Source: Branchiostoma floridae (Eukaryota > Chordata > Leptocardii > Amphioxiformes > Branchiostomatidae). From it: a stretch of DNA of 64,000 bases. Position 1 is the first letter of the stretch, and every line of letters starts with the position of its first letter. This document shows, one piece after another, positions 12,282-61,900 of this stretch. The stretch is taken from NCBI RefSeq assembly GCF_000003815.2, contig NC_049995.1, positions 13,230,062 to 13,294,061 of the forward strand. The letters are read 5' to 3'. The notes under the pieces are model-generated. The model ran no database searches. It was not told the DNA's origin and was given only the letters and a program-made list of their open reading frames with translations. The position numbers were made by a program, and so were the translations under genes.

Positions 12282-15085
12282 TTAGTACTTCTCGTCCGAG
12301 GCGGTTTGCAGACTTGTGTAGGTGTTCTCATCCAGACTAGCCAGGTTGATATAGTCCTGGGCAAGGGGAAAAGGGGAAACCTAAGAAAGATATCTGAGTG
12401 AAATCAAACATGAAATATTCTAGGAAAGTTAGATTATTATGGCAGTGCACTCAATACATGATTTTGTATTATGACAAAAAATTGATTTTAATATATGACA
12501 ATTTTCAAAATGATTACCATTGGCTAAATTTCAATCTGTGTGGACTATCAGGTTACATACTGTCAATAGAGATTACTATTTCTAAAATTCTGTAGTAAAC
12601 CACTTTCTACAAAACTATTTCATTCACAGCCTTTGATATGGCCAATCTTTTACTGTCAAGGCAGTGGACACGAATGAGCGATTACACTCACATGTTCAGT
12701 CTCCATGAGTGAGTCCAGGGTCCGCTGGATCTTCCGGAACTCTGGTCTCCGGGAGGGATCAGCATCCCAGCAGTTCATCATCAGGGTGTAGCTAGAACAG
12801 TGTGATTCGTGTAACAAGTTTAAATCTTATGTTCATACACAGCATTTGACTAAGGAAAGCAGTACTAGTTTTGTCGCTATTTTGCCATGCACCTCATTCT
12901 ACATTAAGTATGAGATAAGTCCGCAAAGAATGAAGTGGTAATATTGTGTGTGTGGCTATATTTTCTCGCTAAAGAATATTATGAGAAAGAAGAAACCAAT
13001 CTCACTTTAACAAGTATTTCGACTTACAGTTTCTCATCACAGTGCTTTGGCTTGTCCATCCTGTATCCCTGCTGAACTCCGTCCATCACGCCTCGTTTGG
13101 ACATACCGGGGTACGGGGTGGCACCTAGGGGGAAACAAACATCATGAGTTGTATGTCCCTCCTGAATCGCACTTTTGCAAAGTGTAATGGCCAAAGTCTT
13201 TCAACAGAGACCAGGTTATTCTTTTTTAATTAATGTAAATATTAAGTAGGTAACCTACTTTGTTATTATGGTTGGCTTTGTATGAACAATAACTTTCAAT
13301 GGAATCATATGAACCCACCCAGTGTGACGATCTCCCAGAGCAGCACTCCAAAGGCCCAGACGTCCGTCTTGGTGGTGTACTTCCGGTGGAACAGCGACTC
13401 GGGGGCCATCCAGCGGATAGGCAGGCGGGTCTGGTGTAATATATACAATGGATAAATGCCAATATCGGCGAAGCTATACTTAACACTGGGTTTTCAAACA
13501 ATAAACAGAAACAAAAACTATCAAACCAAATCCTCATTAAAAATAAAGTACAGGTTTCCCGATCAATTGACTAAATTTGATTTTACACCTGCTCCTTGTA
13601 GACATAAATCATATCAACTGATGTCCACAGCATACTGTTGGATAGCTCTAAGACAAATGTTAAATTCTTGAAAAGTGAAGTCTGCAATAAAAACCTTAGT
13701 GGTCCTTTCGTACTCATCCCCCTCCCGTGAGAAGCCGAAGTCTGACACCTTACAGGTCCGGTCTGCAGACACAAGAACGTTCCGGGTCGCTAGGTCACGG
13801 TGGAGGATCTGTATAATAGTATGTATTAAAATGATAACAACTATTATACCGGGGATTGAAAAGTTAATTTTGTCTTACACGTCTTTCGCTTACATTAAAA
13901 ACATCAAAAAGAACTGAACAACAGTGAGTCATCATCGGGTATCTGGCCTATTTGCGACCAGAACGCGACATCTGTGTCAAAGGAGCTAAGAAGTCGGTAC
14001 CTTCCGCTGCCCTTATTCATATAGGGTTGGTTATATGTTATGTAGTCAGTGTGATCAAAGTAAGTATTTGTTGCAATCCACGTTTACCACTCACCTTCTT
14101 CGCTGACAGAAAGCTCATCCCCTTGGCCACGTCCCAGGCGAACTTGGTGAGGTCACGTGAGGAGAGGGACTTGCTGCCGCCGTGTAAGTTCCCGTATGTT
14201 TGCTGGGTGCGGCTGGTGCGGAGGTTGGACTGGAGACTCCCTCCGGAAACGTACTCAAGCAGCAGGTAGAACGGATCTGAGGATACAAGCAAACTGATTT
14301 AAATAATGTGTCAAGTACTTATTATGTAAAAGCAACGGTTTGTTTTAGGAAGGGTGGATCAAAAATTTCGTTTTTTTTCATTATTCCAGTATCAGGTTAC
14401 TTTACTGAAGGAGAATTTTTGGAACTAACCTGCATCTGTGCAGCAGCCCAGAAACAACACAACATTTGGATGCTCTCCAAGGAGCTTCAATACTGAGAGT
14501 TCCTTGAAGAAAGCAGGACTTGTCACAGCTGAAAATTAACAATCAACGCTGTAAGTAGGCGTCTCAGTTTTCTGCAAATGTAATCTTACTGTAGCCTGTG
14601 TTTACACAATCTCTCGCTGGCTGGGGTTAATGACCAATTGTAGGGCCGGCCGCTAGGGGCGCTATTTTAGTCAGACTAGATCTTACTGCATCAGTTAGAC
14701 AACGTGTCTATTCTCGCTACATCGCTTTGTATAAACAGAATGCACATCCCACACACTAGATATCAATAAGAAAGTAATAAAACGTAGGGGTATGTTTGTA
14801 AGTGAAATGTGCCGTAAATTAAAGCGACGATGACCGCATTTGTCGTAGGTGAATAATCGTGTGCACCATCAATGAAACCACGTGTCCGCAATTTGAAAAA
14901 AAAAAAAGTTCACCTTTCATTGACTTGACGGCGACCACTGTTACGCCTTCATGCCCGGACAAGTTCCAGGCTTCAGCTCTATGGACGCTTCCAAACTCTC
15001 CGTGTCCGAGTTCCTCTTTGATGGCTAGCTGGCTTCGAGGGAATTCCGATGTCTTCAAATCTTCGTAAGCAGATTCATCTGGAAT
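12282..15085 (-). CDS. Gene 2 exons 19-26: tyrosine kinase domain and tail
   Basis: Eight exons encode a complete kinase. The glycine loop is GHGEFGSV and the ATP lysine is in VAVK (exon 15085-14914); the C-helix glutamate is in FFKELSVL (14528-14430). The hinge [10 protein letters not shown] and an insert lie in 14276-14095. The catalytic loop HRDLATRN and DFGFSRE are in 13808-13695, with a single activation-loop tyrosine in [14 protein letters not shown] and [11 protein letters not shown] follow (13430-13319), then GATPYPGM (13124-13028) and [10 protein letters not shown] (12791-12692). The last exon is a 24-residue tail starting DYINL, with a TAA at 12282. All catalytic residues are present, so activity is expected. 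The family is RTK with FGFR-like wording in the activation segment. Confidence 0.93.
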
Positions 15086-18000
15086 CTGCATTTCATTCAA
15101 ATATATCAAATATAGTACATCCGGTTAGATCTGATATACTCAATCCAATACTGTTAACCTATATCGTGTCTTTTCAGCGAATGGAATTCACACTCACATA
15201 CAAACACGGGAACCCACACAAATATATGCTTGTGTGACTGCGTGTTGTGTGTGTGTGTTTGTGTGAGTGTGCGCACGTAAGTGCATAAAGTTATCAAAGG
15301 AAAATTGATCAGGAGAAATGAAGTGGTTACCTTATTTTCACCACGTGGCATTAAACCCTGATACGTGTGGTCAGACTGTAAAGGAAAACAAAACGTTATG
15401 CTGGAATGTATAGGTATAACTTGCAGAAAGGTTGAATTTGCCAATTACAGATGTATAAAAGTTACTGTTTACAGTAATAGATGTGAAAAGTGTCAAATAT
15501 CCTTTACACAAATAATTGCAACTTGAGTTGTTTATGCACTAGGTTATAACAGTTGCAAAATGACATCTGTTAAGATCTTGTAATAAACGGAATATAAGAA
15601 CAAAAAGCAGATTACAAAGCATGTTTATATGGAAATGCTGTAAATTTACCTTTCGCCTATGGGAAATCCTCAAACTTTGATACGCATCGCCAGAATCAGT
15701 CGTCTAGGAAAACAGAGCAGTACGTTTACGGTTGATTCTCATTGATTGCATATTTACTCTATTTGTTTAGCTGCTGTGCATGCAAATCCGATGGGATAGT
15801 CATGCTGATAAAATAAAGAAAACGTCAAAACAATGAAGATTTACACAAGGATGATTCAAACTGATCTATAAATCTCTAACTCGTACTATAACTTAGATAC
15901 ATGCATGGGTAATCACTTACAACATCTTCCAATTCCAGGCTTTTGGGAGTGTTGGTAGCAGCTTTATCTGAAACACAGGGTTAGATTATCATTATCATTA
16001 TCAGAATGTGATCACAAAATGAAAGTGGTACACAATTTTCATATAGAGTGCAAGGTTTCCACCAGACAAGGTCAGCACAGGGTTTCAGTAGATCTATAGC
16101 TATAGAAGCGTTGAATGATGTTACGGAGAGCTTTCATGCTTGCTTTTGTTATCCTTATCTCATTAAACAGCTATATACTCACCGCGGCTTGTTCGTCTTC
16201 TCACGAGAAATATGACGGCGACAATTACAGCTATCAGCACAACACTGACCACCACAGCTATGATGATGACAGTGGTTGAATCTCTCATGCCGACTAAGAA
16301 AAAAAGGCATTTGATAACAATCATTAAGCAACCCAAATGACAATTTGACCTGCCCTCACGGAGTAATTAAGGAGTAAATTGAAGTTCACTTCATGACTTC
16401 TTTTACGATAATTTTCATTTGTTTTTAGAGTGGGAAACAAATTACAACTAAAGGCTCGCCACTGACAGAAGTTAGAGAATTATATACAAGACCGATACAT
16501 ACGGGATATATACACATACTATTTCTAGGTCTTTTCAATCATGATAAGAAGTAACAAATCTCGCCTGTACTTTGGGTGTCACTGATCCTACTGCTCAAAA
16601 GATCCACAGTGAACTCCCCCAGCTGTCCATCTGCCAGTTCCTGAGTGTACGAAGTCTGGGCTGCAGCCGACTCAGACTGGGCCACAATGGCCTGAAAATC
16701 TGCAAGGACGCTGCCGGATCTGACAAAAGAAATGGGATATTACGACTTTGACCAAACATTTAACGAGATTCTTGTGACCCTCGATATATATTACTCTAAT
16801 GGCTGCAAGAAATGAAACAATTACAATGGGTATGACACCCAAATTAATCCAAAAGTACCCAGAGCTACAATCAATCTATCAATAGGCGATATTCTAAAGA
16901 AGGTTGAAGCATCCACCTGCATCCGGTGACTTCTGCCCCTTCATAGCCTTTGTAGCTGTCAAATATAGAGTCCAGCTAGAGAGAAAAAGAGAAATAAGAG
17001 ACATTAACAAATATGTACATGCGACTTTTTAGCACAACATTCATTGAGTCAGCTTAAAGATGTCCTTATATGCATGGTTTCGACATGTGTTTCAATAAGT
17101 TTTATGGGAATACTCAGACAAACCTGAGTCACTACACGGTTAGAAAGCTCTCCGTCACAAATCCCCTCGGTGTAATCAACACTGGCGATGGCTAAGGTTC
17201 CATACAGGATCTGGTTTTCTAAGGGAAAAATGAATGATAGTATAACCAAGAAAGTCCAACCCTATGAAAGCTCAGAGCAAAAGTGCCAAAAGAAAACGGA
17301 TGCCCAAAGCAAATGTTAAATGCTACAAAAATGCTTTTAGTTGAGTTCACAAGCGTCTTGAAGCCTATCGATACAAACAAGTCAAACAAGGATAAGCAAT
17401 GATTCCGGTGCGATAAAGATTTTCGACATCACAAAAGACATGACTTATTTGTTACACACCTTCCACGAGAACCTGGATGACATTTGACCCCACAGCTCCC
17501 TGGCTGTTCTGTGCCCGGATGCGGATTTCGTACTGTCCCTTCTCAGACAACTCCAGAGTCTGGGTAAACTCAGGTCTGTTCTGTGAAACCGCCTCCACTA
17601 CTGATGGCCCGCTGACCCAGTCTGTAGTGGCTTCCAGCCTGTACTGTACAGTGTGGGTCGTCTCCAGTCCACCGTTAAACCCCGCTGTCCATGTCAAGGT
17701 GACCACGCCTGCCGCTGTCTTTTTGGTGTAATCCAGATTATTGGGCGCCTCTGGTTGGGCTGAGTTTGTATCAACAGGTAAGCAGGTAACAATTAAAAGC
17801 TACATCGCTTAGATACTGCTTGTCAAGCTGGATTCTATGCAATTATAATGTAAATATCAAGCAATCAATTACAAATCAAGAAAGAATTTATACTGCACTT
17901 CGTGTGAACATAATCCACTTACATTCCTCCGCCAATTGAATAACAGTAGATCGTTGTCCATGTCCATTCCTGGCTTTACATGTGTAGTCCCCATAGTTTT

Positions 18001-30607: not shown

Positions 30608-33226
30608 TTAGTACTTCTCGTCCGAGGCGGTTTGCAGACTTGAGTAGGTGTTCTCATCCAGACTAGCCAAGTTGATGTAGTCCTGGGCAAGGGGAAAAGG
30701 GGAAACCTAAGAAAGATATCTGAGTGAAATCAAACATGAAATATTCTAGGAAAGTTAGATTATTATGGTAGTGCACTCAATACATGATTTTGTATTATGA
30801 CAAAAAATTGATTTTCATATATGACAATTTTCAAAATGATTGCCATTGGCTAAATTTCAATCTGTGTGGACTATCAAGTTACATACTGTCAATAGAGATC
30901 ACTATTTCTAAAATTCTGCAGTAAACCACTTTCTACAAAACTATTTCATTCACAGCCTTTGATATGGCCAATCGATTACTGTCAAGGCAGTGGACACGAA
31001 TGATCGATTACACTCACATCTTCAGTCTCCATCAGTGAATCCAGAGTCCGGTGGATCTTCTGGAACTCTGGTCTCCGGGCGGGGTCAGCATCCCAGCAGT
31101 TCATCATCAGGGTGTAGCTATATGTAGAACAGTGTGATTCGTGCAACAAGCCTGAATCTTATGTTTGTATGTAGCATTTGGTTATCACAAAGCAGTGTAG
31201 TTATTATTTTGCAACTCATTCTATGAAAGAAGTCCGGCACCAATTGCCTAATTTTCTCGCTAGCTATTCTTCCTGTTTTTGCATGACTCATAAAACATTT
31301 CTTTCGTTTTATTATGCAAAAGAACCATGCATTAGAAAGCAACTAGACTCACAGTTTGCTATCGCAGTGTTTGGGTTTGTCCATCCTGTATCCCTGCTGA
31401 ACTCCGTCCATCACTTCTCGTTTGGACATGCCGGGGTACGGAGTCGCACCTGGTGGAAAAACATAAATATAAAAATAATTATTGTTCTTTATCATTCCTT
31501 GGTATACATTAGTCATCAAATTGATAAAGTCGCCAATGCTACCTTTGCTGATTTTCTCTTTATTTTCTATTGTCAACGGGTCGCACAACAATGAAACAAA
31601 CTGTCCCTCTCAATTAAATAATGGCTTAACTGGCGGTTATTTTTGTAAGGGGCTTCATTACAAGAATCAAACTCATGAACGCACCAAGTGTGACGATCTC
31701 CCAGAGCAGCACTCCGAAGGCCCAGACGTCCGTCTTTGTGGTGTACTTCCGGTGGAACAGCGACTCGGGGGCCATCCAGCGGATAGGTAGGCGGGTCTGT
31801 AGCAGGTTTATACAATGAAATAGTAATGACGAAGAAACTATATTGAAAACGGGATGAACGAACTTGTCATTTGAAAAATCATTTGACTAAACCTGATCTA
31901 AAGTTAAAGTCATTCTTTGTTAACAAGTATTAACTGAATTATCTATAACAGAAAAGCTTGATTTGGGGCAACTGAGAACTACCTTTGTGGTCCTCTCGTA
32001 CTCATCCCCCTCCCGTGAGAAGCCGAAGTCTGACACCTTACAGGTCCGGTTTGCAGAGACAAGCACGTTTCGGGTCGCCAGGTCACGGTGGATAATCTGA
32101 AATCACAATGAATAAAAAGATATCAATGTCAGTTAACCTGTATAGTACAGATTCATAGCTGAATAATTACAAGTAAAACTTATGGTTGTTGGTTAATCTT
32201 CATAAAATGACCTAACCCACTCACGTCTAGACCGTGACGTATAGAGTGGTTTGTAGAAGCCGAAACGCCGAAACAACCCGTCGTCGACGTCGTGGTTCAT
32301 GTGAGGCTAATTCATTCTAATGTAGTCAATACGACTGTGATTATTGTACGCCACTTCGCAATACGTAGTCCCTACTCACCTTCTTCGCTGACAGAAAGCT
32401 CATCCCCTTGGCCACGTCCCAGGCGAACTTGGTGAGGTCCCGTGATGAGAGGGACTTGCTGCCGCCGTGTAAGTTCCCGTATGTTTGCTGGGTGCGGCTG
32501 GTGCGGAGGTTGGACTGGAGACTTCCTCCGGACACGTACTCAAGCAGCAGGTAAAACGGGTCTAGAGACATTACTTACAAAAGTATGACACTATGAAGCA
32601 ATCCCAGGAATAGATTATCCAAAATACAGTGGAAGTTATAGCGGAACAAGTGTTCCTCATTAGAAGACGTCTTTTCAAGGACTATGAATGGATGAACAAT
32701 TTCTTCAACATAAACATGTTTATATGTCTGAGTTTACAAAGCTGTAAGACTTTCCCACCCACCTGCACCCGTACAGCATCCGAGAAACGACACAACGTTG
32801 GGGTGTGTCCCGAGGAGCTTCAGGACTGACAACTCCTTGAAGAAAGCAGTTGAAGAAGCAGGGCCTGTCATACCTGAGGAGTTAGTAATCGTTGATAGAA
32901 TGTAAATTAGACTATCTATAAGCAAAGGAATGTAAGAAAATACAAATTTAGATATTGAATGTAAATATTTAACATATTGCATGTGCTGTAATCAACATAA
33001 ATCACACAGTCTTTTAGAAAAAAATTCTTTTCAATAAAGTGCTAGGATTACCTTTCAACTCCTTCACAGCCACAGTTGTTACACCTGTGTTTCCTGATAT
33101 TTTCCAGGCTTCAGCCTTATAGACACTTCCGAACTCCCCTTGCCCAAGTTCCTCTTTGATGTCTAGTTGATTCCGCGGGAATTCCGACTGTGTCTTCACA
33201 TCTTCATATGTTGCATCTGGTGATGT
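30608..33226 (-). CDS. Gene 3 exons 19-26: tyrosine kinase domain and tail
   Basis: The kinase is complete. The glycine loop is GQGEFGSV with lysine in VAVK (33226-33052); the C-helix is FFKELSVL (32873-32763) and the hinge [10 protein letters not shown] (32561-32380). [10 protein letters not shown] and DFGFSRE are in 32096-31983, WMAPES and [11 protein letters not shown] in 31796-31685, GATPYPGM in 31449-31353, and [10 protein letters not shown] in 31117-31018. The tail is DYINL...NTYSSL with a TAA at 30608. Catalytic residues are intact. The last intron and 3' flank are nearly identical to gene 2. Confidence 0.93.
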
Positions 33227-33836
33227 CTGTATCAACAGCAAGATCTGTTAGTAAAATATATTCTTGTATACGTCATGCAATTCATGAAAATATAGATGAT
33301 ACATCGTACGCGTGTAATAGATAAGAATAGTATATGAAATACACTCCTTGTTAAACACTGACGAATATATAATACCTCATTCCCACTTCGTGCCATCAGC
33401 CCTTGGTACGTGTGATCAGACTAAATTGATACAGAAACAGAAAATATTAGAAATACAAACAAGGCTTGCTTCCAAAAGCCAAGAACAATCAACACTTCGA
33501 AAGCCTGACATAAGTAAATTTTACATTCAAAAACATTTGAAGCTATTATATATACACACATATATATATACCTTGTTAGAGTAAATAACAAAGCATATAT
33601 CTAGTACTGTGTATTGCTCTACCTACCGTCCGTCTATTAGGTATCTTTAAACTTTGGTATCCGCCATCCGTATCGTCGCGCTGGAAGACGAACACAATCA
33701 TCAAATAAATGCTGATTGATTTTTCATTCATTAGTAAAATACATGGCCATTCTCCAGTCCTATATGTATAGATGTGCCCTTGGATAAAGAAGTATGCAAT
33801 TTTTACTTCCTTGAAAGAAGTATGTATGTATGTATG

Positions 33837-33867
<31 letters not shown>

Positions 33868-36800
33868 GGAAGTAGATATGATAAAACATAAAATGATATT
33901 CGCTTACCACACGGTCCAGCTCTATGTTATTTTGATGATTTTGGCCAGGTTTTTCTGAAATAGCATTCATATGTAGTTGATTAGATTCTAGAAACAAATC
34001 TTGTGACATATATAAGAAACATTTGAACAAGAAAATCAAAGAAAAAATAGATTGTACACTCACTATTGGCTGATTTCCATCTCCTAAAAACAAACACTCC
34101 AACACCAATGATAGCTAGGAAGACAACCCCACACACTACTGCTGCGATGATGATGATGGTTGCGGTGCTGTCTCCATCTACTGTAAGGGAACAGGAAATC
34201 TTCGGATTAAAACAGCAATTGTGACAACTCTGTGATGACGATTACAGTGGTGTAATAAGGGCTGAAATACATTTTTCAGTTTCAATAAATATATACATTA
34301 AATGTTACAGTATCTTGTTATCAAATACTATTTTCTTAAAACTAATGAAATACTTAAGGGTTAATGACCCGCCCCGAGGTGTATATGGTGTCATAACGCC
34401 TGGTCCTTTACTATAACCACAGAAATTCGAATAAAACCACCGATGTGAGCGAAGCGAACGAGGTGGTTTTATGAGGTGGTTATAGCAAAGGACCAGGCGT
34501 TATGACACCATGTACACCGAGGAACAGGCGGGTCATTAACGTTATTATCATATAGCCTACCCAAACTTGCAATATCCTGTATGACGCATAGATCCCTTCT
34601 ATACGTGTGAATTCCTTTGTACTATACGTGTGAATTTCTGAAAATTCACATTTGTTCTTTGATACATGCATATGTAAGGAGATTACAGATTGCATTTTGA
34701 AAACAAAATTTCCACAGAAAATATTCGAAACATTGCAGGCTTTTTAGAACAACAAAACTCATTATCAGGAGCCATTCCCCCTTGCAGTCAGTACTTATTC
34801 CCTCGGCTCTGGCATGTTTCGCTCCTGTTTATTGGTCAATGCCTGCATATACCTCACTTTCTTGTGTGTATCACTACTTTTGATTGGTCAGAATGAATCG
34901 ACGGTGTCGATTTGCATAGACACTGGTGCCGGTGTCGATGCAAGTCGATTCATTCTGACCAATCAGAGGAGCGATACACACCTGCCTGGCCTGAATCTTT
35001 GTGTTACGGCGTCATAACTAACGTGGAACGGGGACATCTGATTGGTCCGCGGGGCCTTGCTATATGATAATATGTTTTAAAGCAAAGATTGTTAGTGGCA
35101 TTCATCAAATCGTAAACACTGAAAATGCATATTCTTATCACAAATGTCATATCATATTGAACTATGCAAGGGGTTGAAAACTCATATATTTTTCCTTTAT
35201 ATTTCATATGTTCCTTGGGGATGATACGATCCGTTCAAAACGATTTATAAAAGAAGAAAACATAATGTCTATTACCAGACGGCTGTTAATCACTAATACC
35301 GCTTACCAGGAGGCCTCGTGACAGAAATTTGTGAGCTCTCCTTGACCACAGTAAGATCTCCCACACTGCCTGTGTTGACCTGTGTCTCGAAAGCTTCTAT
35401 AGCTGCCTGCGTTTCTGACTCGGCCACCACTGCCTCAAAGTCTCCTACTACACTGCCCTGGCTGTGGATTGGAATCGGGACCCAGCTCATCATAGATTCA
35501 ATGGCATTTTACAAAATGATAATATATAATCAGGAAACAAGTGAATGCAAATTGCTACCTTACCTAAACTGTGTTATGGTCGCACCCTCATATCCAATTA
35601 GAGAGCTGAAAACTTTGTCCAACTGTTAAAAGAAAGAAAGAGTATCACCATTATTGCGTTCTTCCCCCGGATATGATACATGATATATCAGTTAATTATC
35701 ATATTTTCTTCATATATATGACAAAAGGCTTAATATATAGGGCATACATTATGTAAATATCCATTATATACAATAGGGAAAACAAAACAAAACCAAAGAA
35801 ATGTGTAACGGTATTTCAATATTAAGACAAGTCTTAAAAGCCTTTTTAAAATGAGACAAAAAAGGAAATAAAATAATAAAGCAGGAATAAAAAGTTTAAG
35901 CCTTCCGACTCACATTTCTCTCCCACAAGGCTTTCTTTTGTCGAAATTCAGTTGACTCGCTGTCTTTCAATGCCTCCACCCAGTTTTCATTCGTTGTCAT
36001 CCTTCCAGACAGGTGTTGGCTTGCTGTAAGAAACATCTAACTTGACTTTATATTGCAGTTTTGTCGCGTCGAATGTTACAATGCTTTGGCATCTTTTATA
36101 TTCAATAATAAAATGCAGAAACAATATAGAGCCAACGTGCTTGATAAGATCATTGTATATTTTCCTCTTGTGAACAAAAAGGTGACAAGAAATGTTTTCC
36201 ATGTATTCCATGTACCTTCCAGTTTCAGATCCACAGACTCAGACCATGCCTCCCCCTGTGTGTTCCTGGCATTTATTCTGATCTGATAGTCCCCAGCCTG
36301 CTGTGCCTTCAGGTCGAGTGTAATGTTGAACGTACGACGCTGCTCAGATGCAGTTTGTTGACGACTCCCCACATCTTCCCATTGATCTGCCCCTACCTCT
36401 CTCAGCTGCACTATGTGAGCTGTGTCCAGACCACCGTTAAAATCTGCTGTCCAGGCGATGCGAACTACAAACTGTGTATTCTTGGACAGGACTATAAGTC
36501 CACTGGGGGTTCCAGGGGGTCCTGGGGAAATACACGAGGTTTGAAATAAGTTGTGACAACAGGATGATGATGGAATTCATTTTTCATCAATACTGTTAAA
36601 GATAAAGTGTAATAACATAGAAGACGTTCCATAACTATGACCATTATTCAATGAAATCTTACCGAGTGGTTGAAGGGTCCTGGTAGTTGATGACGACCCT
36701 TTGATATTGGCTGCCGTACAGTTGTACGTCCCATAGTCTACTTGTTCCACACCAATGATGGTGAGGACCGAGGTTTCTCTTGAAGACTGGATGTTGAGCC

Positions 36801-52922: not shown

Positions 52923-55900
52923 TCAAGCAATAGGACCATTTCCGTTCAGTGGCTTTGAGAGACTATCCGGAATCGTCACCTCATTATTAGCCGCGGAATG
53001 TGCAGGTCGGTACGCATCTTCCAACGACTGCTGTTGAAGCTCAACCTGGTGTTGTGACCTACATAACAGTACACAACGTAGTTGCATCTTTTTCTGTATC
53101 ACCTATTCAACATCCACTTAGACCTTTTAGGATTATTTAGGATTGTAGATATTTCCTTTTAACACGGCCAAACCTATAGGTTTATTATTTCTGAATATGC
53201 GTGGTATATATTGAGGGATTTTTATGTTACCACATATAAAAGAAGACATTAATACAACACAGGGTCACACAATGCATTTCTAAACAGCATAATTGACTGG
53301 TCAGTTTGCATGTAGGTACACATATTATGACAAAAACACTATCGTATTCATAAACATTTCACATACATATCAAATAATTTCGAAATATTATTATTTCCGT
53401 TGCTGCAAATTTTAATGTATTCTGATTCGAAATTGTTTGGTGACTTACCTGATTTCACTCAAATCTTGGGAAACTGAAAAAAGAAAAGGGCAAATGAAGG
53501 CCTAATACGCAAAGTACAATATTGTTTTAAAAAATGCAATAAGATGTGCCACTGTACACTTTCATTTTACGACAGTTCTAAAATTTTACTTTTTTCTAGT
53601 TTCTACCTTATAGCCGCTGTTTTTAAAGCCACTCGTGCTGTATACAATGTCCCTGCCCAGTGAACATTTGGATTTTGTGCTGGAAGAGAGTTACTTAGAA
53701 AAACATTGATACTTGTCTTTCGCAAATAATTGTAGAATTTTAGATATAAACAATTCCTTGTACGTGTAACAGAAATACATAAATGTACATAGTTTTGTAA
53801 TATGGAACAACTATTGCAATATGTCTAGTCACAGTAATGACACATAGGCAATAAACGTACAAATTGAGTAGAGTTAACCTAAAAGGTATATACATACAAT
53901 ATAGTGTTTACAAATACTTTAATTTCTTTATTTTGCTCTCTGCCACCAATGGGCCACAGCAATTGACATAGATATACACTCAACAAAACAATGAAATCAT
54001 AAATAACTAGACACAAGTTACAAATGAAATCAATAAAACAAAGGCCAATTGTACATCAGTTAAAATGAAATGAAAATATGATAAGGGCAGAACCAAAACC
54101 ATAATTATATTAAACTTCATGAACAAAAGAGAAATCATAAAACTTAACAAGGACATGAGCTTATGTGGAACAAATCACAATTTTTCAAATGAATAAATAA
54201 ATCAGAAGAAACAAAACCATGTAAGGGTTAGTCCTCAGACTCCTCACAATTAGTTATATCAAATTAAAATAATTGCACATCAACACAAAATAAATCATCA
54301 ATCAAACATATGGAGGACAAAGGTTAAGCGGACAAGGACGACAGACAGAGTGGATGAACATGTTTGTTTCTTAAATTGAAGGCATTGTAAATAAACTTTC
54401 CTAACTGTCTTATTAATGTTGTAGTAGGGCCTGACATTAATTCCTTGAACTTGTGTGGGTCTGGTCGCGTGGCATAGTATTTTGGCAGGTGTTGTGTTCT
54501 TAAACTATGTAAATATGGGCATTCCATTACAAAGTGATACTCGCTTTCAATGACACCTTCTAAACAGAGAGGACATAATCTATCTTGTCTGTCCACATTT
54601 GTATGTCTACCTGTTTCTATACTTAGCTCGTGTGATGCACATCTCAGCTGTGCTAGTGCTTTTCTGTGGTTAAAAACATTGATTACACTCAGATACTTTT
54701 CTGTCACAAATCTGTCCTTGATTATGCAATATGTTTCTAGCCTATTAGTGTTTTCTATTTCATGGTTCCATATTTGAGTTGCCTGTAGTTTAGACCTTTT
54801 TTTAAAGACCTCAAAAAATACTTCTTTATTACTTACCCCCTGGCCATACCATGCTTCTTGCAGACCATGTGAAAACAGCAACTGCTTTACCTGGCTTAAC
54901 CAGGACTTCCTGTCCACCTGGTCAAGCTCGTATAGTAATTTGTAGCATTTCCTTGAATACCTGTTCTCATTCATCTCTAACACTTTTACCTAAAATTTAA
55001 TTATTCTAATTTGTCTCTGTACATAAAGAGGATGTCTCCCTAATTCTCCTCTAACTGCTGTATTTGATGCATTATGTCTGACTCCTAGGTAATACTTACA
55101 AAATTTATTGTGTACTATTTCTAGTTGTTTACACGGATGGAACCCCCAAATTTCGCACCCGTACATCATAATAGGCAAAATCATAGTATCAAACAATTTA
55201 AAGACTAACTCTGGGGATAATACACCAAACTTTTGAATCCTCTTCTTGATTATGAAAATTGCTTTGGATGCCTGTGATGCAAGAGTGTCCTAAGCCCTAT
55301 ACCAGTTTCCCCTGGAAGAGATGGTTTTACCTAGGTACTTGTAAGTGCTTACAACTTCAACTTTCTTTCCACCATAAAACCATCTCTCTGACCGCCTTAA
55401 CTTACCTCCATTCCGAAAAACTATCACTTTCGTCTTCACTAAATTTACTGTCATCTGCCATTTTTCACAATATTTGTTAAGTGCATTAAGGACCCTTTGC
55501 AGACCTACTATTGAGTCGGCACACAAGGCTAGGTCATCCGCGAACATTAAGCTTAAAATTTCAACATCATCCACTTGTATACCTCTACAACCACTTTGTG
55601 TCAAATAATCATCTAAGTCACTTAAAAAGAAGGCAAATAAGAAGGGGGATAATATACACCCCTGTCTTACCCTCTATTACATGTAAACACCTCACTCATA
55701 TCACTCTTCAGTCTGACACAGGATTTTACATCGGAATATAGTGATTGAACTAGTTTAACCATTTTACTACTTACTCCCCCATTTATTAATTTTTAAGGCC
55801 TTGGAAAAATCTACAAATGCGCAATAGAATCGTCCACCTGGTCTTGATAAATATTTATGCACCATAGCATTTAGACAGAACAAATTATCTAAAACACCAT

Positions 55901-58900
55901 AACCCTTCCTAAACCCCATTTGTGATTCCACTAGTTTTTCTTCAGCCTGACCCCAATTATTCAATCTTTTCCCCAGGATTGCAAGAAACAATTTGCCAAA
56001 TACTGATAATAGGGTAATACTTCTATAATTCCCCACATCATCTTTGTTTCCAGATTTGAATAATGGTTGAATAACACCTACTGTCCATTGTTTTGGTATT
56101 ACAACGAGCGTGAAACATTTATTGAACAACATTTTTAGGTATGGTAACAGAATTGAAATACTCTCATGAAAAAACTCTGGTAATAATTTGTCCATGCCAG
56201 GTGCTTTGCCTGCTTGAGATTCTTGACACTGTCTAAAATTTCCTCCTCAGAAATTTCTTTATCTAGGCTGTCAACCTCAGTATTACCATCGTTTTTACTT
56301 TGCAATGCACGTTCCCTTGTAAACAAACTCGATGATTTGTCTGATACTATGACCGGTCATAATATCGATGTAGGTGTTGTAACAGAAACATGGTTTACAC
56401 CTAGTCACCCTGTAGAATGCACTAATATAGAAGGGTACACACTCTTTTCCCGTTGTCGCACTACTGGCAGCCGCGGCGGGGGCATTGCCATTTATGTACG
56501 AGAGAGTATACCCGCTGAAATTATTGATTTTATCGTAACACCAACAGAGCTTGAGTGTCTATGGGTACTAGCTAAACCATATTGGACACCAAGGCACATT
56601 ACAAACTTAGCTATCTGTGTTGTTTATAACCCCCCAAGTAGTCCGTACCAGGATATGTTAGGTGATTATCTTCTCCACAGTATTGACAAGATTACCACCA
56701 AATATCCGCACGGGGGAATATGTATTATGGGAGATTTTAACAGGTTCGAAATCAAACCCGTTCTTCATGGAAGCAAGCTCGACCAAGTCGTGAAACACCC
56801 CACTAGGGGAGGGGCAGTACTCGACCTGATAATTACTAACTTGAAGTCATCCTACCAAAACCCTTGTATTGAAGAGCCATTGGGCCAGAGCGACCACAAC
56901 ACTGTGCTTTGGTACCCAGTAGACCACAAACCCACCAACACTACAACTAAAGTAACTTTTCGGCAAATGAAAGATTCTAATATACGCTCATTTGGACAAT
57001 GGATTTCACAACACCCATGGACCTGAGTCATGGACGCCGCAGATACCCCAACTAAAGGTGACAATTTTTACGACACTCTAAATGCTNNNNNNNNNNNNNN
57101 NNNNNNNNNNNNNNNNNNNNNNNNNNNNNNNNNNNNNNNNNNNNNNNNNNNNNNNNNNNNNNNNNNNNNNNNNNNNNNNNNNNNNNNNNNNNNNNNNNNN
57201 NNNNNNNNNNNNNNNNNNNNNNNNNNNNNAAACCAGGTAATTCGTTTATGTGCAAAAGCTAAAAAACGCCATTATGTTTCCAGGGTAAAATCCCTTAAGA
57301 AAGATAACCCAGCTAAATGGCACCAATGTTTGCGCAAGATTTTAAACTCTTCTAGATCCCCTGTCTCGGTTTGTCTCCCTGACAATGCGCACTTACATGA
57401 CAAAGACATTGCCAAACTAATCAATGATCACTTCTCATCAATAGTGAATGAATTGCCCCGTTTAGATCTTGACTTGTTACCCACTTACCTACCATCACCG
57501 TCCAGGCCACCACGTATTTTCCCATGGGAGGTCTACGAAACGTTAAGACGCCTTAACTCTAATAAGAGTAACGGTCCGGATAACGTGCCCCCTAAAATAG
57601 TCAAACAGTATGCGGTTGAATTCAGCGAAGTCCTCGCTCATATCTTCAACTCCTCTTTAGAGGAAGGCTATGTTCCAAAACCAAGGAAGCAGGCCATTAT
57701 CTCACCAATTCCCAAAAAGTCGCCAGCCTCACTTAACAACCTACGGCCAATCTCTTTAACTTCAGTCCTTATCAAAGCTTTTGAATCATTTGTAACGAAA
57801 TGGGTCCTTCAGGACGTGGCAAATGTACTTGACCCCAACCAGTTTGGCTGTAGAAGAGGAATGTCCACTGTTCACTACTTAACTGCAATGGTCAACTCGA
57901 TCCTCCTTGGTGCAGAAAGCCCAAAAAGTATCCAAACGATTCTTTTAACAAATTTTAATTAACAAAATGTTACAGTATAATGTACGTCCCTCAATTTTGC
58001 CATGGCTCTGCAATTTTCTTAGTAACCGATTACAATGTGTCCGCTACCACGGTAACCGATTACAATGTGTCCGCTACCACGGTGTAACTTCAAGTTGGAG
58101 AGAAATTTCGTCTGGCGTCCCCCAAGGCACAAAATTAGGTCCTATACTCTTCTTAATTTATATTAATGACGCCCTTAGAGAAGACGTTTTAGACCGTTAT
58201 AAATTTGTCGACGACTTAACAATATGTGAAAGTAGAATGTTCTATGAACCCAGCCAAGTACAAATTAAATGGCTGGGCGTCAAAAAACGACATGATCCTA
58301 AACGGTGAAAAATTTAAACTACTAATGATTTCGTTTATGAAAGACTGCCCCCCTCCTCCGACAATCTCACTTAACGATACGCCCCTTGAATACACGGAAG
58401 ACGCATGTATACTTGGCCTATGGTTCTCCAAAGATCTTAGTTGGAGCAAACATGTTGACATCATTACACAAAAGGCAAGTTCACGCCTTTTTTGGCTGAA
58501 AAAATTAAAACGATTTGGACTCCCCACACAAGATCTCATCGAATTCTATCAGGGTTACATACGGCCTACTTTAGAGTACGCTGCTCCAGTTTGGAGCCCG
58601 AGTATCACGGCGCTGCAATCCATGAAGATCGAGCGAGTACAAAAACGTGCCCTAAGAATTATCCTTGGCCTCCATTATACATGTTATGATGAAGCCCTAG
58701 CCCATTTTTGTCTCCCCTCCTTAGAAAACAGGAGGAAAAACCTTAGCCTTAAGTTTGCCAAATCTCTGTTTAGTTCCCCTATGTTTAGAAGCTGGCTACC
58801 CCCAACACGTTCGGAAGTTCATGGTAGAGACCTAAAAAGTGCGAACAAACTTTGCATTCCATCGACCAAAACAAATCGTTACAAAAACAGCCCCATCCCA

Positions 58901-61900
58901 TACTTCACCCACCTTTTAAATACATGTACCTGAAAAGATCTCCCATGTCTCTCAATCCACCGCCACAGTCTTCATTTATACTTTGTATAACAATTTGTTT
59001 TGTTTCCCTTTGTTTTATTCCTATAATACGACTTCTTGTAATTGTATATTTTCATAGATTTTACACATGTATGAAGTACAATGTCTAAAATGCGCAATTC
59101 AGCCTCTTCTACTGTGTAGAAGTAGCTGCGATGTATTTTATTGTTCACTGACTGAACTAATAATAAACCAATCTTATTACAGTGATCAGAATTTTCCCAC
59201 ATACTATTGGCATTGCTCTCGGCTGTATGTTCCTCTTCTGACTTATTGAAAAGTTCTTCAAAATAATTAGCAAAACCCTGTACACTAATATTTCCAATGT
59301 TAATCACTTTCTTTCCTTTTACTAAATTCCAAAAATAATTGACCCCGTAAGCTAAATTAAGATTATTTATTGGTACATGAAAATAAAAAAGGGGCTGCCT
59401 GTCAGAGTCTAGTATACACTTTAAGTTAGAATATAAAAGATTCAAGAATATTTGCCAACAAGATCAAAGACTAAATTGAAAATCAATTTAAGAGTAATTG
59501 CAGCAATGTAACAAAATGTAAGTTAAAGGCTGTCAGCTACATCCTGTTTTCCTCTCCTAGCCTTACTGTTGAACAATGTCAATATAAAATTCAAAGAAAG
59601 GAAATTGAAAATGAGGACATTGTGGAGAAATAAGTTTTGAAATTCAATTAATTGATAAAAGGATGCTTCGTCCTGCTTCTAAATGAGATGTTAAACTAGA
59701 TGCTATTTACAATGATACTAACCTCTGCGTGTGGCGATGTTTCTTTTGATTGTGTATTGTCACTTTACACCCACCGTAGATTTTGATTGTTATTATGTAT
59801 GATAATGCAAGTTGCAACAATGGTACATCTTATTGAATCTTCACTGAGAAACGAAGTTACAGTTTGTATTGAATGTGTCACCTACACCGAAGTATAAACG
59901 AAAAGCCAGTGACTTGTCTTAATTTACCTTTGCTTGACTGTTTCCTGACACAACACATGAACCAAATGAAGGCTGCAGCCAAGATAACAATACAGACACT
60001 TCCGATGGCAATGACGGCTACTCCTGAAAAAGCACGGTCTGTCAATGGTACATCTACGGTTATAACTTGCATATGGCAATTGAACACTGGTCCTATTGAA
60101 GAAGCATATGTTACCGAAGCGCCATTTCCTTTTAGGTATGTGTTGCATGTTTTGACACTTTAAAGGCATACTACGGAGTTTTTTTGCGCTCAAATTTGAT
60201 ATATTCTAGAATTAAGAAATATCAGATTTACTACCACTTTTTGTCACTTTTTGACACTTTTGTGTCGTTATTTCACGTTTGCAACATAAGGATTAGCCTA
60301 CAAAACATTCTGCTCTAGGCACGCTGTAACCTGTTGACCTCCCTAGTTAGACCCTCCTGTTTCTAAATAACAGCATTCTTGCCACCGGTAGGTCCCCCGG
60401 GGTGGGGTAATCAGTTAGCACATGAATGGCAGACTGCAGATAAAGAACACAATGGAGATCTTCTTTGCAAACACCCATATCTAATCATTCTAAAATAGCA
60501 TATAATAATGAACTTTTAGTCTATTTCGTAGGATATCATCAAGCTGAGGTCATATTCCCTTCAAAACTGCAGGAAACCTTGAACAGAAAGCTAGTCTACT
60601 GTACTCAGAGGAACTGTCAACTGGCCCCCCACTGGGAAGCCAGGCTGATTAGCAAGAAACAACAACACACAGCGGCAGTAACCAGCCTGTGCCCATCTGT
60701 TTCTTGGAAGATCACAATTTTTATACATCATGATTATGTGGTGCATTGATGTCGCAGCATCTCTCCCTGAACATTGGTATGCAATGCTATAGGGTTGATT
60801 GAACTAACAATGTAAAGAAAAAATAGGAAAAGCTACTTTTTGTTTTGTTCAAAAACAACGTAGTATGCCTTTAAAACTCTTTCAATTCAGTTACTACAAG
60901 ATTTTGCACAATCCTTACCACAATGTCAAACTACGGTGTTAAATGACTTTATCACCTTCATCGCCTTGTAAATAGACTGCAGACACCACAATCCCAGCAA
61001 TAGCAATCGTCAAACCCAGAGAGAACTCAAGTAACATGGTTGAAACAGGTAAGTTCATACCGTTGTCTAAAAAAAACAGAACAGTAAATGGTAACAGAAT
61101 GAAACAAATCTTTGGTCAAACAATTACTGTAACTATGTTTTAATCATTATTCATGAAATAGCTAAATTACAATTTGCTAATTTAATTCGTACTTCTTTAT
61201 ACACCCTGACACAGGCAAAAGCTTCAGTAATGTAAACATGCAACATCAACTCTCATGATTTCCAAAACCGCTAACAATCATATATAAAATGGCTGAGACT
61301 TGTTGATAAATACTCCACATAGTATGCACACTTATGTTCAAAACATTCTGGAGAAGGCCTTGATGACACTGTTCTATGAATAGATGGTTAATGACCTGCC
61401 TTGTTGTGTATATTTTGTCATAAGACCTGGTCATTTTCTATAACCACCAAATACATTATGATGTGGTTATAGCAAAGGAGCAGGCGTTATGACACCATGT
61501 ACACCGTGGAATTGGCGGGTCATTAACGTTATTATTATGTAGCACATCCAAAACAATCCGTTTGATTCCTTTGATACTTTACATATTGATAGATGTTTTG
61601 AATTTCTGAGAAATACATTTTGAAAAAATACATTTGTCCTTTTTGATGTAAAAGTGATTGCAGATTTCATTTTGAAACCAAAAATTTCGTAGACAAATAT
61701 TCGTAACTTTGCGATCTTGACATCTCAAATCTTTTAAAATCATATCTACTGTACTGCATTGATGAAAATTTCTCCCTGTTGGATTTGATTCTGATTCATC
61801 ACTGTTCTATGAACTTCTTCTGATTTGATCCAGTGTTGAAACAAAAATAATACCAGTGTTAAATCCTTTTCTATATGTTACGACGTCATAACCAATATGA

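Follow-up and report, generated by a model that had tools for sequence, protein, structure and literature searches.

Paired YxxL tyrosine motifs between membrane and kinase as a candidate ITAM-like docking cassette in a lancelet receptor tyrosine kinase family

Introduction

Can a receptor tyrosine kinase (RTK) carry on its own polypeptide the paired docking site that is familiar from immune receptors? The question is raised by a 64,000-nucleotide stretch of the Branchiostoma floridae genome (the window; C17:13230062-13294061, C numbers being contigs of the same 513-Mb, 431-contig assembly). Here minus-strand genes 2 and 3 terminate in tyrosine kinases and bear spaced tyrosine motifs between membrane and kinase, which an initial annotation had taken for a docking site resembling the immunoreceptor tyrosine-based activation motif (ITAM), fused to its own kinase. 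The canonical ITAM consists of two YxxL/I motifs 6-12 residues apart (6-8 in the strict form) with an acidic residue shortly before the first tyrosine, and its usual carrier has no kinase of its own and is phosphorylated by a Src-family kinase. ITAM-Syk signalling and RTK signalling are usually presented as distinct modules that Src-family kinases connect. The reading that we favour, with confidence evenly balanced, is that the segment is a conserved, autophosphorylated paired docking cassette with ITAM grammar, serving a tandem-SH2 protein on an FGFR/RET-like RTK. If this is true, ITAM-spaced pairs inside RTKs, with their exon multiplied in one case, would be two modules fused in nature, as in the engineered pYtags. 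The family also lets one test whether, in an invertebrate chordate, receptors beyond immune adaptors made use of ITAM readers.

Results

Exon models were derived from DNA alone by splice scoring around blocks conserved between paralogues, and several splice scores were modest. The models read YQSL-x11-YQGL-x13-YEDL between membrane and kinase in gene 2 and YQSL-x11-YQGL-x13-YEDV in gene 3. The spacing is thus identical and the linkers differ, as the initial annotation had stated, and its placing of the first pair under YxxL/I-x(6-12)-YxxL/I is borne out in the broad range. The exons from membrane to kinase measure 47, 54, 45 and 172 nt in gene 2 and the layout in gene 3 is identical (Table 1); acceptor 33226 of the gene 3 P-loop exon was picked by homology, the splice score slightly favouring 33244. 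The YQSL and YQGL tyrosines each occupy a tiny phase-0 exon of their own, whereas the third tyrosine, for which the same had been claimed, shares the P-loop exon. Since both mini-exons begin and end in phase 0, they could be spliced in or out in frame, as had been suggested. On the minus strand of the window four phase-0 mini-exons of 36-63 nt exceeded one splice-score threshold and three of these contain YxxL/I, namely the two gene 2 exons and, from gene 3, the YQSL exon; the gene 3 YQGL exon fell below the threshold. All six gene 2 tyrosines outside the kinase core, the C-terminal residue excepted, have leucine at +3, and a hydrophobic residue occupies +3 in 3 of 7 core tyrosines.

The receptors belong to a family with at least 14 genes in the window's own genome, 14 places having matched a kinase-exon query at E 2.4e-23 or better (such counts are lower bounds) and the next four matches showing 53% identity or less. 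The intracellular part of gene 2 matches PK_Tyr_Ser-Thr (Pfam, E 4.8e-88), and its best single-domain matches in PDB are FGFR1 (2.6e-77) and RET (2.3e-76). In what is a similarity ranking and not a tree, the best 60 of 2621 PDB sequences are all FGFR1-4 or RET except the top one, where the scores of two EGFR kinase domains in one chain add up. Upstream, 18 of the 20 exon frames that were scanned in genes 1-3 matched Ig domains of Pfam, V-set included, and an FN3-like exon of gene 2 scored 24.9 bits, just below the cut-off of 25. The FGFR ectodomain has three Ig domains and that of RET is cadherin-like; the present ectodomain is instead a long Ig array with the FN3-like exon. By these domain matches, the family couples Ig domains to a receptor tyrosine kinase of FGFR/RET-like type.

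The juxtamembrane region was read in all 14 genes, which are genes 1, 2 and 3, C17b, C17c, C17d, C15a, C15b, C12, C7a, C7b, C16a, C16b and C10; the kinase of gene 1 lies about 2 kb left of the window, at C17:13227911. All family comparisons are between paralogues of this one genome, and it was on these that the conservation of tyrosine, leucine and spacing across the RTK family, a check called for in the initial annotation, was run. A YxxL/I pair is present in 13 of the 14 genes and takes only two spacings: 11 in ten genes (genes 1-3, C17b, C15a, C15b, C12, C7a, C7b and the intronless C16a) and 7 in three (C17d, the intronless C16b and C10). The broad ITAM range thereby covers 13/14 genes and the strict range 3/14. 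In all 13 genes with the pair, an aspartate or glutamate stands within three residues before its first tyrosine. The third motif follows YQGL after 13 residues, or after 15 in C17d, C16a and C16b, and reads Y..L/V in 13/14 genes and HENV in C12. The motif exons of C7a and C7b are identical.

A second pair, which the initial annotation did not include, was found at the C-terminus. YI[NDS]L-x7-YxxL is present in 13/13 tails found among the 14 genes, at strict ITAM spacing; the tail of C10 was not located. In 12 aligned tails the tyrosine, I+1 and L+3 of the first motif and the tyrosine and L+3 of the second are invariant, and the +2 residue of the first motif is N in 7, D in 4 and S in 1. This variation would fit ITAM or PLC-gamma grammar better than that of Grb2, and since +2 may be N, D or S, Grb2 (YxN) docking was rejected as the rule for tails in general. 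Among the 13 tails, that of C16a has no acidic residue before the pair.

How much of this could arise by chance or recent copying was judged from shuffled segments and codons. When the segments of gene 2 itself were shuffled 200,000 times, a YxxL/I-x6-12-YxxL/I pair arose in 0.5% of cases in the 66-residue juxtamembrane segment and in 2% in any of three gene 2 segments, and one gene alone is therefore weak evidence. Between genes 2 and 3, 11/12 motif residues are identical in the juxtamembrane region versus 19/54 others (Fisher p = 4e-4); 8/12 motif codons differ and the sole residue change is L to V. The juxtamembrane introns of the two genes align at 0.45-0.55 versus 0.47-0.52 in shuffled controls (one control each), and model exons 2 to 5 are 53-73% identical. 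At 97% identity their last introns are nearly the same, and so are the 3' flanks at 94% (632/673 aligned bases). For this reason the match between the gene 2 and gene 3 tails proves nothing; it was rejected as evidence of conservation and family-wide tails were used. The two 3' ends (window 12282-12691 and 30608-31017), near-identical in last intron and flank beside juxtamembrane introns that do not align, were probably homogenized recently by gene conversion or unequal exchange.

The codon test was extended to 8 copies of the YQSL exon and 9 of the YQGL exon, leaving out C7b as identical with C7a, C17d for its different length, C16a and C16b for their lack of introns and C10 for its different exon structure, with C17c contributing no YQSL exon. 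The 8 motif columns held 14 extra codons and 0 residue changes; the 25 linker columns held 86 extra codons, with 53 extra residues among them (p = 8e-6, a value that ignores shared ancestry). Judged by this silent drift, the YQSL/YQGL pairs appear to be kept by selection across the family.

The pair has also been multiplied and retroposed, it would seem. The distant paralogue C10 has five tandem juxtamembrane exons (C10:3121669, 3122107, 3122709, 3123036 and 3123402; range 3121669-3123485), three of which hold both tyrosines as YQGL-x7-YQSL, YQGI-x7-YQSL and YQSL-x7-YQSL. C16a is a single intronless frame of 624 residues that spans Ig-like sequence, membrane, both motifs, kinase and tail; C16b is a similar intronless copy that runs into an assembly gap and has an extra FQSL repeat. 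These two look like processed copies, and since they join both motifs in one frame, an ancestral transcript would have had both motif exons spliced together. On C16 the two face each other head to head, their P-loop matches lying about 3.8 kb apart (L002 682-2556 and L040).

Scanned for the HTYQGL codon pattern, the genome yielded 24 places, of which 9 belong to family genes and 15 lie elsewhere, versus 9 for a reversed control. No YxxPhi mini-exon was found within 2.5 kb upstream of the P-loop at RTK loci L041 (C6) and L042 (C3), and a PDB sequence search with the motif pairs alone gave no useful match, one at E 1.1 being an expression tag (GLVPRG versus GLMPRG).

A candidate reader of the pairs was sought with the SH2 profile (PF00017), which found 66 places in the genome, and with human SYK fragments as queries. 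C15:6243576-6243917 matches the SYK N-SH2 domain (42%, E 1e-20) and C15:6245073-6245231 the C-SH2 domain (36%, E 6e-4), both within a 1.9-kb piece. On the same strand follow SYK kinase exons at C15 6250126 (61%), 6251076 (56%) and 6251578 (69%), the highest identities among 144 matches scored of 521 candidates; by E-value longer intronless kinases lead among those 144, the best being C15:21375980 (45%). Strand and distance suggest that the SH2 and kinase exons at C15:6243576-6251730 form one gene, and it is very likely, on these matches, that the genome encodes a Syk-family kinase. Invertebrates and jawless vertebrates typically have one such kinase, as stated in the part of PMC9601881 that concerns them, and the corresponding part of PMC5431462 (2017) describes Zap70 and Lck homologues as not then reported in amphioxus.

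Discussion

The proposal that an ITAM-like docking site is fused here to its own kinase holds in part. A pair conserved in tyrosine, leucine and spacing is found in 13 of 14 genes on an RTK and a Syk-like gene is very likely present, whereas the third tyrosine looks ordinary, as judged from its alignment with the FGFR2 juxtamembrane tyrosine before EFPR. Regarding exon use in mRNA, phosphorylation, partner and outcome, we infer the following course. With both motif exons included in the message, ligand would induce clustering of the receptor, whose own kinase would phosphorylate the tyrosines in trans, two in the juxtamembrane region (YQSL/YQGL, 11 or 7 residues apart) and two in the tail. A tandem-SH2 protein would then dock on each pair with both tyrosines phosphorylated, most likely the Syk-family kinase apparently encoded in this genome, or PLC-gamma, which is as good a candidate for the tail because FGFR1 has EYLDL at the matching place. 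No Src-family kinase would be needed for the first step.

Engineered receptors provide a precedent. In the RTK-ITAM fusions described in sections of PMC10202457 (pYtag), the ITAM is phosphorylated on ligand addition and recruits tandem SH2 domains, and the EGFR fusion works in Src/Yes/Fyn-null cells; the same sections report that ITAM-less FGFR1, PDGFR-beta and VEGFR3 do not recruit and that ErbB2 needs its ITAMs. A natural ITAM in an RTK could therefore work, and the ordinary tyrosines of FGFR1, PDGFR-beta and VEGFR3 are insufficient. The fusions share with the lancelet family an ITAM on an RTK; unlike that family they are man-made, with three CD3 ITAM repeats at the C-terminus (PMC10202457, same sections). 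No report of a natural ITAM-bearing RTK was found among the titles and abstracts listed by searches of the open-access literature aimed at one. Each half, ITAM and RTK, is known; what would be new is an RTK family with ITAM-like cassettes.

In comparison with the ITAMs of CD3, FcR-gamma and CD79 that are read by Syk/ZAP-70, the lancelet receptors are alike in having two YxxL/I motifs at 7 (the tails, and the juxtamembrane pairs of C10, C17d and C16b) or 11, in the acidic residue close before the first juxtamembrane tyrosine, and in the Syk-like gene of the genome. They differ in spacing, which is 11 in ten genes, and in possessing a tyrosine kinase domain of their own. Because of this kinase, and with tandem-SH2 binding being an inferred property, we class them as RTKs with ITAM-like cassettes and not as ITAM receptors. 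With FGFR1/2 and RET they share the kinase domain, the EFPR context, a juxtamembrane tyrosine and a Y766-type tail site; unlike these they have the additional YQSL/YQGL mini-exons, a second tail YxxL and the Ig array with the FN3-like exon. A more far-reaching proposal is advanced tentatively, as one that may well fail. It holds that this would be a natural ITAM-RTK, with V-set/Ig ectodomain, tyrosine kinase and ITAMs in one polypeptide, a single-chain immune-type receptor family in which self-phosphorylated juxtamembrane and tail ITAMs recruit Syk with no Src-family step, and in which duplication of the exon (up to five copies, in C10), possibly together with splicing, sets ITAM dose.

Several observations weigh against the cassette. 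The commonest juxtamembrane spacing of 11 lies beyond the strict range, so that the gene 2 pair itself falls outside it, and all copies are drawn from one genome. In the 8 kb read, C17c has YQGL but lacks a YQSL exon; the YQGL exon of C15b has no GT at the usual donor, the P-loop exon of C7b has CTG where C7a has a CAG acceptor, and C12 has lost the third tyrosine, so some family copies may be decaying. In C10 the first tyrosine is missing from the fourth exon and the second tyrosine from the fifth. Where the donor would stand, GT is present in exons 3 and 5 and GC in exons 1 and 4, and exon 2 has no clear donor; some of the five may be relics. The YQGL tetrapeptide also occurs in the peptide HDGLpYQGLSTA, which we take to be CD3-zeta, at odds with the label CD150 (Y142) that it bears in a published peptide array. 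In the tabulated part of that array (PMC3514216) it had no score with Shc1, the sole partner listed. Finally, FGFRs have counterparts of the third tyrosine and of the first one in the tail, so that at least these two may be ordinary RTK sites, and GYQSL can be read as a YxxPhi sorting signal. On account of the counterparts, single-site docking or YxxPhi trafficking remain serious rivals.

If the tyrosines were independent ordinary SH2 docking sites, the first tail tyrosine would equal FGFR1 Y766 or the KIT tail site, YEDL/V would equal FGFR1 Y463, YQSL and YQGL would be extra single sites and the spacing would have no role. We find this doubtful, though a case to be reckoned with. It accords with the closeness of the gene 2 kinase to FGFR1 and RET among the best 60 PDB sequences and with the alignment of YEDL-EFPR to FGFR2 YELP...EFPR, in which that half alone counts as the first half is an expression tag (DDR1, second match of the juxtamembrane search, has no tyrosine at the YEDL position). 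It also accords with the alignment of tail DYINL to FGFR1 EYLDL and KIT HIYSNLA. The FGFR1 Y463 and Y766 peptides are both tabulated in PMC3514216, where, in that tabulation, Y766 had no score with PLC-gamma and Y463 a KD > 50 uM with CrkL, so that textbook single-site readings are not simple. Within the family itself, the second tyrosine of each pair is conserved like the first, there are two juxtamembrane spacings and one tail spacing, and C10 multiplies the pair as a unit. Adaptor sorting, in which unphosphorylated YQSL/YQGL would bind the mu subunits of adaptor complexes and direct the receptor to endocytosis or lysosomes, is unlikely in our view. Both motifs have the tyrosine and bulky hydrophobic residue of a perfect YxxPhi, from which adaptor binding is predicted; DGYQSL resembles the GYxxPhi signal of the LAMP type, and LAMP/TGN38-type signals share the tetrapeptide pattern. 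Unlike those signals, the lancelet motifs are paired at fixed spacing with a second pair in the tail; sorting needs neither these nor the paired C10 exons, and YQGL is preceded by T, P or A, not G, in the 13 genes other than C10. Sorting and ITAM functions can coexist in ITAMs and hence are not exclusive.

Two further explanations have still less in their favour. KIT and Eph receptors show juxtamembrane autoinhibition that is relieved by phosphorylation, and tyrosines packed on the kinase could act likewise here, YEDL/V standing a few residues before EFPR, where juxtamembrane switches occur; the linkers between the motifs vary and change length, unlike a packed segment, and we rate this as very improbable. 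Least credible of all is that the motifs are chance or relic sequences persisting merely through recent copying. The near-identity of genes 2 and 3 in last intron and 3' flank and the damaged look of some copies would agree with it, whereas the juxtamembrane introns of these two genes align no better than control, the motif codons differ silently, and the distant copies on C10, C12 and C16 retain the motifs.

Other features of the window and assembly

Table 1. Positions of gene features in the window
Feature	Position	Strand	Remarks
Gene 1 Ig exons	3456-7484		
Gene 2 transmembrane exon	16183..16293	-	
Gene 2 juxtamembrane linker exon	15921..15967	-	without tyrosine
Gene 2 YQSL exon	15650..15703	-	Y..L at 15682-15671; 54 nt; phase 0/0; paralogues exist
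Gene 2 YQGL exon	15331..15375	-	motif 15363-15352; 45 nt; phase 0/0; paralogues exist
Gene 2 YEDL and P-loop exon	14914..15085	-	YEDL 15067-15056, EFPR, kinase P-loop (GHGEFGSV); 172 nt; aligned with FGFR2
Gene 2 kinase exon with insert	14095..14276	-	kinase insert with YGNL (14196-14185)
Gene 2 other kinase exons	within 12692..14528	-	14528-14430, 13808-13695, 13430-13319, 13124-13028, 12791-12692
Gene 2 C-terminal exon	12282..12356	-	YINL (12353-12342) x7 YTSL (12320-12309), then stop
Gene 3 YQSL exon	33627..33680	-	motif 33659-33648
Gene 3 YQGL exon	33376..33420	-	motif 33408-33397
Gene 3 YEDV and P-loop exon	33052..33226	-	YEDV 33208-33197, EFPR, P-loop; acceptor by homology
Gene 3 C-terminal exon	30608..30682	-	YINL (30679-30668) x7 YSSL (30646-30635)

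The tyrosine of the kinase-insert YGNL, which we take to be a possible Grb2 site, is kept in 9 of 11 copies read and lost in both intronless copies. The extracellular segment before the membrane (window 16542-16739 and 35296-35508) carries RSGSVLADF and SQGSVVGDF, which resemble the SEA autoproteolysis motif; Pfam did not recognise a SEA-like domain in this segment. Open frames judged by eye to resemble retrotransposon reverse transcriptases lie on both strands at window 54324-58933. Elsewhere in the assembly, C12, C8, C1, C7 and C18 hold dozens of intronless long open frames with tyrosine kinase matches, many of about 900-970 residues, which are partly clustered and make up an expanded intronless kinase set.

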